Source of the DNA: Amycolatopsis tolypomycina
GTDB taxonomy: Bacteria; Actinomycetota; Actinomycetes; Mycobacteriales; Pseudonocardiaceae
Length of the DNA stretch: 64,000 nt
Assembly (NCBI RefSeq): GCF_900105945.1
Contig: NZ_FNSO01000002.1
Span: 372,001-436,000 of the forward strand
Reading direction: 5' to 3'
A model generated the notes under the pieces. That model did not search any database and was not told the origin of the DNA. It saw only the letters and a program-made list of their open reading frames with translations. The position numbers and the translations under genes are program-made. Below, in pieces: positions 656-2,050 of this stretch (position 1 is the first letter of the stretch; every line of letters begins with the position of its first letter).

Positions 656-798
656 TCGTCATCTCCCTGTCCGCGTAACACCGCGTGAGGCTGGTACGAC
701 ACGCATCCGTAGTGAGGAGTACCCTCAACCATCGGTGTTCGCGCGTCAACGCGAGCCCCACCACTGTCACTCCCGGCCCGAAGGAGGTGAGGAACCCG

Positions 799-867
799 AT
801 GAGTAGTGGCGATAGTCCGCTCCCTAGTAGTCCCAGCGTTCCCACCTCTCGGGTCGTCTCCAGGTAG
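799..867 (+). CDS. Proline-containing leader ORF upstream of corA
   Basis: The perfect ribosome-binding site AAGGAGGTGA (781-790) is followed 8 bp later by ATG and 22 sense codons ending in TAG. The peptide begins MSSGDSPLPSSPSVPTSR and has four prolines, one after an acidic-Ser pair. Codons 12-15 form the left arm of a perfect hairpin (833-843 pairing with 882-892). The layout of short ORF, overlapping hairpin and downstream Mg2+ transporter gene parallels known Mg2+-responsive leader peptides such as MgtL of Salmonella. Its expression and role are inferred. It is too short for database support and could be chance, but the Shine-Dalgarno match is the best in this neighbourhood. Confidence 0.5.
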   Translation: MSSGDSPLPSSPSVPTSRVVSR

Positions 868-922
868 GCCTTCTCAACTCCGGGAACGCTGGTGTGTCGC
901 CGGGCGGACGTCTTTTCCGCCC
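833..922 (+). promoter_or_regulatory. Structured 5' leader of corA (two hairpins)
   Basis: CCAGCGTTCCC (833-843) pairs perfectly with GGGAACGCTGG (882-892) around a 38-nt loop. A second stem, GGGCGGA (902-908) with TCCGCCC (916-922), follows. The 312-bp gap between the MaoC gene and corA therefore holds the leader ORF plus two stems. The arrangement could act as an attenuator or translational switch. I could not match it to the M-box consensus. Confidence 0.45.
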
Positions 923-967
923 CTGGTCCGTCGTCTCGCACGACCACGCACGACACCAGGAGATCCC

Positions 968-2050
968 ATGCCTGCCATTCCCTCGCTCGGCGGCCTCCGC
1001 GGCCGCGGCAACAAGGGCGCCGTCCCGGTCCGCCCGGTTCCGGTGCCGCTGTCCGCGTACGTCGTCGACTGCGCCGTGTACGTCGCCGGTGAGCGCCTGC
1101 CCGGCCGCTGGACGCACTCCGAGGCCATCAAGGAGGTCCGGAAGCGGCACGAGGGGTTCGTCTGGATCGGGCTGCACGAGCCGGACGCCCAGCAGATCCA
1201 GGGCGTCGCCGACACGTTCGGGCTGCACGAGCTGGCGGTCGAGGACGCGCTCGAAGCGCACCAGCGGCCGAAGCTGGAGCGCTACGACGACACGCTGTTC
1301 CTGGTGGTCAAGACCGTGCGGTACGTCGAGCACGAGTCACCGACGACGGCCAACGAGATCGTCGAAACCGGCGAACTCATGGTGTTCCTCGGCCGCGACT
1401 TCGTGATCACCGTGCGGCACGGGAACCACTCGGGGCTGGCGCGGCTGCGGCGTGAGCTGGACGACGACCCGGAGCGGCTGCAGCTGGGGCCGTCCGCGGT
1501 GGTGCACGCCATCACCGACCACGTCGTCGACCACTACCTGGACGTCACCGGGCGGATCGAGACCGACATCGACGAGATGGAGGCGCAGGTCTTCGCGCCC
1601 CGCTCGCAGGTCAGTGCCGAGCAGATCTACCTGATGAAGCGGGAGGTCCTCGAGCTGCGCCGGGCGGTGATGCCGCTGGCGACGCCGATCCAGCGCCTGG
1701 CCGAGGGCTACACGCGGCTGGTGCCGGACGAGGTCCGCTCCTACTTCCGCGACGTCGCCGACCACCTCACGACCGTGTCCGAGCGGGTCGCGGCGTTCGA
1801 CGAACTGCTGTCCACCCTGGTCGACGCGACCGTCGCGAAGATCTCGCTCCAGCAGAACACCGATATGCGCAAGATCACGTCGTGGGCGGCGATCATCACC
1901 GTGCCGACGATGATCGCCGGTATCTACGGGATGAACTTCGACTACATGCCCGAGCTGCACTGGCAGTTCGGCTACCCGCTGGTGATCACCCTGATCCTCG
2001 GGATCTGCCTGTTGCTGTACCGAATATTCCGGAAGAACGGCTGGCTCTAG
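968..2050 (+). CDS. corA: Magnesium/cobalt transport protein CorA
   Basis: This 360-residue protein belongs to the CorA family of pentameric inner-membrane Mg2+/Co2+ channels. The long N-terminal part is the cytoplasmic funnel domain. The C-terminus has two membrane segments, the first ending in the selectivity motif YGMNF at about residues 320-324, followed by a periplasmic loop and a short basic tail ending RKNGWL. The ATG at 968 has AGGAG 5 bp upstream. The frame is open further upstream to about 806, but that stretch overlaps the leader hairpin and has no ribosome-binding site. M. tuberculosis corA (Rv1239c) lies next to sugC; here extra genes separate the two. Confidence 0.95.
   Translation: MPAIPSLGGLRGRGNKGAVPVRPVPVPLSAYVVDCAVYVAGERLPGRWTHSEAIKEVRKRHEGFVWIGLHEPDAQQIQGVADTFGLHELAVEDALEAHQRPKLERYDDTLFLVVKTVRYVEHESPTTANEIVETGELMVFLGRDFVITVRHGNHSGLARLRRELDDDPERLQLGPSAVVHAITDHVVDHYLDVTGRIETDIDEMEAQVFAPRSQVSAEQIYLMKREVLELRRAVMPLATPIQRLAEGYTRLVPDEVRSYFRDVADHLTTVSERVAAFDELLSTLVDATVAKISLQQNTDMRKITSWAAIITVPTMIAGIYGMNFDYMPELHWQFGYPLVITLILGICLLLYRIFRKNGWL

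Follow-up and report, generated by a model that had tools for sequence, protein, structure and literature searches.

A conserved, probably translated leader and a putative three-segment RNA switch upstream of corA in Amycolatopsis tolypomycina and other Pseudonocardiaceae

The corA leader and its upstream open reading frame

We analyzed a window of 64,000 nucleotides (nt) from Amycolatopsis tolypomycina (RefSeq assembly GCF_900105945.1, contig NZ_FNSO01000002.1, positions 372,001 to 436,000), in which the Mg2+ channel gene corA is preceded by a leader that carries a short upstream open reading frame (uORF) behind an extended Shine-Dalgarno (SD) sequence. An initial annotation of this DNA had correctly placed the leader at 781-967 and had described a 22-codon ORF with a ribosome-binding site, overlapping the left arm of a perfect hairpin of 11 base pairs (bp); direct reading of the sequence bears this out, with an SD of 10 nt. 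The features of the leader are the following.

719-725, plus strand: -10-like box GTACCCT, the predicted promoter of the uORF-corA transcript, from a conserved GTA-type pattern
781-790, plus strand: extended SD of the uORF, AAGGAGGTGA, by direct reading
781-798, plus strand: segment A, the extended SD (781-790) plus the uORF spacer, from conservation and covariation with segment B
799-867, plus strand: uORF of 22 sense codons, MSSGDSPLPSSPSVPTSRVVSR, with ATG at 799-801 and stop TAG at 865-867
833-843, plus strand: segment B, left arm of hairpin P1, CCAGCGTTCCC, within codons 12-15, a candidate partner of either A or C
882-892, plus strand: segment C, right arm of P1, GGGAACGCTGG, 14 nt past the uORF stop, from covariation with B
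902-922, plus strand: hairpin P2, GGGCGGA (902-908) with TCCGCCC (916-922), in the minimum free energy (MFE) fold, with weak covariation
951-970, plus strand: corA translation initiation region, SD AGGAG at 958-962 and ATG at 968-970, from a pairing permutation against the segment C region
968-2050, plus strand: corA, Mg2+ channel (Pfam PF01544 CorA, 217.8 bits)

The arms of P1 are perfectly complementary over 11 bp and enclose a 38-nt loop that contains the uORF stop codon. The peptide has the four prolines reported in the initial annotation (P7, P9, P12, and P15), while the GDSPLP run that was described as its start begins at residue 4. Likewise, the second stem that had been noted before corA is present at 902-922 and has little covariation behind it. 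Searching positions 600-1000 against Rfam yielded no match at E values up to 5, and the idea of an M-box riboswitch (RF00380) or another Rfam family in this corA leader was rejected on that basis.

The uORF is strongly maintained across the genus. BLAST matched the leader DNA in 80 of 80 genus genomes, and the uORF was found behind GGAGGTGAGG in all 69 loci read, from 69 genomes (a 70th locus, L070, was a chance second match and was not counted). Residue and codon counts cover 59 of the 69 loci; the other ten have TCC at the second codon and fell outside the counting pattern. D5, S6, P7, and L8 were invariant in 59/59 and P9 was present in 57/59; 55 of the uORFs begin with ATG and 4 with GTG, and 54 end in TAG and 5 in TGA. 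Synonymous changes occur at codons 2, 4, 5, and 8, and S6 (AGT) and P7 (CCG) use the same codon in every leader counted; corA itself uses AGT once among its 13 serine codons. The last third of the peptide is variable, with lengths from 21 to 43 codons, the latter reached by an in-frame insertion with several additional prolines in two uORFs (L066 and L068). Amycolatopsis rifamycinica (L261) encodes an identical peptide, and the short part of CorA present at that locus is 99% identical. On these comparative grounds, we are highly confident that this is a conserved translated leader.

Spread through the family and covariation of three segments

To place the leader in the family Pseudonocardiaceae, we read the region upstream of corA at one or a few loci per genus. 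A CorA-protein search found orthologues in 130 of 140 family genomes and 43 of 46 genera, and an extended-SD uORF precedes corA in 40 of the 43 genera with an orthologue. With an E-value limit of 0.01, a covariance model built on the stretch from the SD to P1 matched 119 of 297 family genomes, spread over 24 of 46 genera. Conservation of the ORF and stems had been proposed as a check of the initial annotation, and we found that about 40 genera keep the ORF, the SD, and P1, the last with covariation. The peptides themselves diverge (for example, MSSADSALPCSTNRIPAGE, MSNDPHPASTSRVL, MKNEPHPASTTRVL, MDPAPGSSTKRVPV, and MSDPHGHDNATGCSSTRVP, with GTG and TTG starts written as M), and the acidic/proline motif near the N-terminus, which reads DSPLP in the genus, becomes DPHP, EPHP, DPAP, or ADSALP in other genera.

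For quantitative comparison we used a set of 62 leaders from 38 genera, placed out of 64 that were listed by hand with known peptides (a first automatic selection had placed 35). This set consists of uORF-bearing leaders chosen to have GGAGGT; genera g4, g12, and g28, which have no uORF, and g33 and g36, which have one, lie outside it. Given that selection, the uORF SD takes the form GGAGGTGA in 56 leaders and GGAGGTGG in 6. An acidic residue occurs within residues 2-10 in 57 of the 62 peptides, and in 54 leaders residues 2-12 contain a D or E with a P no more than four positions after it, a raw count without a chance expectation. A GTA-type -10-like box (loose pattern) was found in 52/62 leaders, mostly 51-77 nt 5' of the uORF SD, again as a raw count with no chance control. 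Across the placed leaders and genus loci the uORF ranges from 19 to 43 codons and its C-terminal half drifts.

None of three second corA copies (three genomes) had such a uORF, and elsewhere in the order (20 genomes from 10 other families, 19 with CorA and 25 loci read) a related corA uORF was found only at L238 (family f9). The exact uORF pattern was absent from 268 class genomes outside the order, though this pattern would miss divergent uORFs like many of those in the family.

As the MFE fold of the leader does not contain the 11-bp hairpin, P1 had to be judged by comparison. Among 61 arm pairs, 13 of 15 P1 base pairs showed double-sided changes, several of which recur across different genera, and the covariation score was 0.306 (0.173 for shuffled pairs and 0.056-0.131 for slid registers). 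A single-leader test (gapless 9-nt score against mononucleotide shuffles) reached p = 0.01 in only 13 of 58 leaders, and the case for P1 therefore rests on the set rather than on individual sequences. Across leaders, segment B corresponds to V/I-P/L codons near positions 12-16 and its partner C lies past the stop; typical B/C arm pairs are GCGTTCCC/GGGAACGC, GCGTCCC/GGGACGC, GCATCCCC/GGGGATGC, and GCGTTTCC/GGAAACGC, from an arm listing in which a few P1 arms stand in the wrong register.

We then compared the pairing of each leader's own segments with pairing across genera. The B:C duplex averaged -26.9 kcal/mol for own segments and -23.1 across genera, and 0 of 10,000 permutations equaled the observed value (61 of the 62 leaders). 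The A:B duplex gave -17.5 and -15.7, again with 0 of 10,000 permutations equal, and four shifted control windows gave p values of 0.04-1.0. Both sets of permutations ignore ancestry, and their p values are too small because related sequences are not independent. In the A:B pairings, GGAACGC or GGACGC in A matches GCGTTCC or GCGTCC in B, and GGGAT matches ATCCC. Since B pairs with both A and C, these two segments are look-alikes that would compete for B. The A:B and B:C pairings share B and both covary, and it is quite likely that they are mutually exclusive RNA structures in a three-segment competition. Hairpin P2 behaved differently: the consensus fold of 26 genus leaders retained its base alone, with a double change in 1 of 5 pairs. 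P2 and a further stem, P3, were rejected as covarying stems, as the alignment there is gappy and the support weak.

Similar uORFs behind M-box riboswitches

The covariance model, which is blind to M-boxes, was also run across 298 genomes of the order and gave two matches outside the family at E < 1e-4. Both were uORFs just behind an M-box, the Mg2+ riboswitch, and these M-boxes scored 143 and 148 bits. A pattern search in family f8 gave 12 matches in 10 genomes, and 10 of the 11 loci fetched had an M-box about 75 nt upstream. By comparison, no M-box was found in the 9 corA-type loci scanned alongside them, nor in any of 6 genus genomes searched.

We next assigned the 80 named loci among the matches listed. 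An M-box was found at 46 of them (26 by core pattern, 3 of which Rfam recovered too, and the other 20 by Rfam only) and corA at 30 (28 by tblastn; L258 lies at a locus edge and L319 has masked bases), leaving 4 with neither or undecidable (L281, L292, L302, and L315). The M-box side among these matches included at least Mycobacterium, Mycolicibacter, Mycolicibacterium, Nocardia, and Rhodococcus. The pattern fixes residues 2, 5, and 6 and restricts residue 7 to P or A in the f8 search, the named-locus search, and the residue counts alike; within that restriction, P7 was present in 46/46 M-box loci among the matches listed. Residues that the pattern did not force were also shared between the 30 corA and 46 M-box loci listed, namely S3 (24 and 24), G4 (23 and 26), P9 (23 and 25), and V14 (22 and 25). 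These MSxxDSP uORFs directly behind an M-box have the same ribosome-binding site as the corA-leader uORFs. Most Amycolatopsis encode S3 by AGT, and those mycobacterial loci in which S3 is present use TCC or TCT, which argues that the likeness is one of peptide and not of DNA alone. The presence of such uORFs behind M-box riboswitches in related genera gives unexpected support to a link with Mg2+.

A uORF in mycobacterial M-box leaders has been described by D'Halluin et al. (2026), who report that uORF2 (Rv1805A) has a conserved N-terminus with proline 7, and that Rho is active in M. tuberculosis M-box leaders (PMC12810186). That report calls the role of the peptide unclear or opaque and terms the peptide mycobacteria-specific. 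By position, SD, and P7, the M-box uORFs found here are probably the published uORF2. The combination is not confined to Mycobacterium, as it also occurs in Nocardia and Rhodococcus records and, loosely, in the family of the window.

Several individual loci deserve mention. Within the family of the window, 11 M-box loci were examined, and three of them (L175, L176, and L179) have loosely similar uORFs (VGSGDSP, MSPDGSSP, and MSTEGSP) about 60-80 nt downstream. L136 carries two M-boxes, 2054-2227 and 1636-1809, on opposite strands and about 245 nt apart; one faces the uORF and the other faces a gene that by eye resembles a P-type ATPase. L257 (JOAA01000016.1) is titled Rhodococcus rhodnii, and its corA leader peptide is Kibdelosporangium-like, so the label may be wrong. 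In the mycobacterial L147 (1-1364, minus strand), an MSPSDSP uORF without an M-box precedes a gene with the motif TTVGYGD, which we take to be a K+-channel-like signature, and L292 has a similar uORF plus the start of a gene nearly identical to that of L147.

Possible control of corA by the translating ribosome

The order of the parts in the leader, together with the Mg2+ company that such uORFs keep, leads us to prefer a cis-acting, ribosome-read Mg2+ attenuator of corA, present in nearly all examined Pseudonocardiaceae genera (rough probability 0.55). The signal would be the ribosome's progress along the uORF. At low Mg2+, a pause or abort at codons 5-9 would be favored and B would not be reached; B would then be unoccupied, pair with C, and corA would be expressed. 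A ribosome running through the ORF would instead occupy B and free C; pairing of C with the initiation region of corA, or else the action of Rho, would then lower corA. The position of the D/P motif just ahead of B fits this scheme, since an aborting ribosome leaves B free for C and a finishing one removes B. That Mg2+ is the signal, as genomic context and the peptide suggest, seems somewhat more probable than the reading as a whole, and we consider the proposed direction of control about evenly balanced against its reverse.

The leader has three traits of known leader-peptide attenuators of Mg2+ transporters, namely a short leader ORF, early acidic and proline residues, and putatively mutually exclusive structures. 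In the MgtL leader of mgtA, an EPDP run destabilizes the ribosome and leads to drop-off at low Mg2+ (PMC11282234), and the likeness lies in an early acidic/proline run ahead of a Mg2+ transporter gene. The leader RNAs differ, and the peptides are likened by motif. MgtL has T6-P7-L8-P9 where the genus corA leader peptide has S6-P7-L8-P9. The closest mechanistic model is mgtQ of Salmonella mgtB, in which the acidic codons Asp2 and Glu5 impede translation and an alternative stem then frees the mgtB ribosome-binding site, which is otherwise hidden; mgtQ differs in being intergenic, 8 codons long, and unlike in sequence (PMC8092293). In enterobacteria, the structured leader of corL-corA likewise combines a uORF with alternative RNA structures, but it has another peptide (a conserved N-terminal region and a single proline) and a three-way junction, and the role of Rho has been demonstrated for that leader whereas here Rho is a candidate (PMC11552253). 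Mycobacterial uORF2 (Rv1805A/Rv1535A/Rv0115A) shares the short ORF, the conserved SD, and the conserved N-terminus with proline 7 (PMC12810186). Loci of the window's type differ in having no M-box and an A/B/C switch inside the ORF, and they occur outside mycobacteria, to which that report restricts the peptide. A literature search, mostly without subscription journals, found no report of corA leader-peptide control in actinobacteria. Mg2+ leader peptides as a kind are known; what is new here is the family in which this one occurs, the architecture of its putative switch, and its tie to the uORF behind the M-box.

Several observations weigh against this attenuator. The MFE fold of 770-975 pairs the uORF SD and spacer with codons 14-20 (an A:B-type pairing) in place of P1, and it is only moderately more stable than folds of shuffled sequences (z = -1.97, with 8 of 200 shuffles equally good). 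Three genera (g4, g12, and g28, one locus read each) have corA without the uORF, and in g36 the uORF extends into corA. Positions 2-10 lack an acidic residue in five of the 62 peptides, and P12 and P15 vary among leaders; P15 sits in a P1 arm, and RNA pairing may be the conserved property there. The initial annotation had proposed a corA Mg2+ switch of the MgtL/MgtP kind, and while the M-box-linked uORFs and the acidic-then-proline run in most leaders agree with this, the inconstant prolines and acid-free peptides do not, and the hairpin appears to be one half of an A/B/C switch.

The output step also provides a more mixed picture. The corA initiation region favored pairing with its own C region over pairing with those of other genera (p = 0.0004-0.013 for windows ending -10 to +10 of the arm), p values that, like those for B:C and A:B, are too small for want of independence. 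Of the other C-region windows, one ending at -30 gave p = 0.01 and the remainder gave p = 0.12-0.99, and an earlier version of the test agrees in tendency; we consider the support for C pairing with the initiation region to be modest. When the ORF was forced to be single-stranded, the corA SD did not become consistently less accessible across 38 genera (0.334 stalled at codon 7 and 0.288 with the ORF covered, p = 0.11; remaining stalled-versus-terminating comparisons, p = 0.68-0.85), and in the window's own leader its accessibility goes the opposite way, from 0.17 to 0.49. Sequestration of the corA SD as the sole output is unsupported by this ensemble folding, and Rho action would be a fair alternative.

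The same translated attenuator might also answer another signal, with slow decoding of serine AGU and proline, charged tRNA, or general translation stress acting on corA as output. This is unlikely, though it draws on the fixed AGT and CCG codons set against the sparing use of AGT in corA, on the reported response of MgtP to charged tRNA-Pro (PMC8092293) and of the TopAI uORF to ribosome-targeting antibiotics (PMC12121999), and on the uORF without an M-box before the K+-channel-like gene of L147 and its counterpart in L292. Against it, 46 of the 80 named loci among the matches listed lie behind a Mg2+ riboswitch and 30 before a Mg2+ channel gene, and serine and proline are tied to neither. A less probable explanation still is that the uORF is a constitutive spacer whose translation senses nothing and serves only to hold the leader open or to keep Rho out. 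The very strong SD in the leaders read would suit such a spacer, as would the action of Rho in M. tuberculosis M-box leaders (PMC12810186), but it leaves unexplained both a genus-fixed N-terminal peptide and the covariation of B with two partners.

We doubt more strongly that the peptide is a trans-acting small protein, the role that D'Halluin et al. propose for Rv1805A as a part or partner of a transporter. An N-terminus common to families despite differing S3 codons (AGT and TCC) is what such a protein would show, but the C-terminal half drifts across the observed range of lengths, B lies within the coding sequence, and in the same report biofilms showed no difference by eye whether rv1805A was present or not (PMC12810186). 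A conserved DNA element such as an operator, open in one frame by chance, would account for nucleotide conservation beyond the needs of the peptide but is very improbable given an SD, start, and in-frame stop kept amid synonymous changes, length changes that stay in frame, and covariation of the RNA type.

The uORFs behind M-boxes in Mycobacterium, Nocardia, and Rhodococcus tie the module to Mg2+. We tentatively suggest that MSxxDSP uORFs may be a portable ribosome-based Mg2+ sensor of actinobacteria, used by itself upstream of corA in Pseudonocardiaceae and in tandem with a preceding M-box in those three genera, although we would give this somewhat less than even odds. An M-box plus uORF transcript would then read Mg2+ twice, by aptamer and by ribosome, and the Rv1805A family, now of unknown function, would gain a role; the job of such peptides becomes a simply testable question in a soil bacterium. 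The corA leader itself is near-universal in the examined genera of one family, and it would be an unusual switch in having its middle segment inside the uORF.

Finally, directly after corA, at 2090-2206 of the window, we observed an ORF encoding a predicted membrane protein of 38 residues (MSKMLSNLKFWALALSVLWIVVITFVIAADPGFAHGMK) with no Pfam match. This ORF recurs in 113 of 189 loci searched, a total that includes duplicates and non-corA loci.
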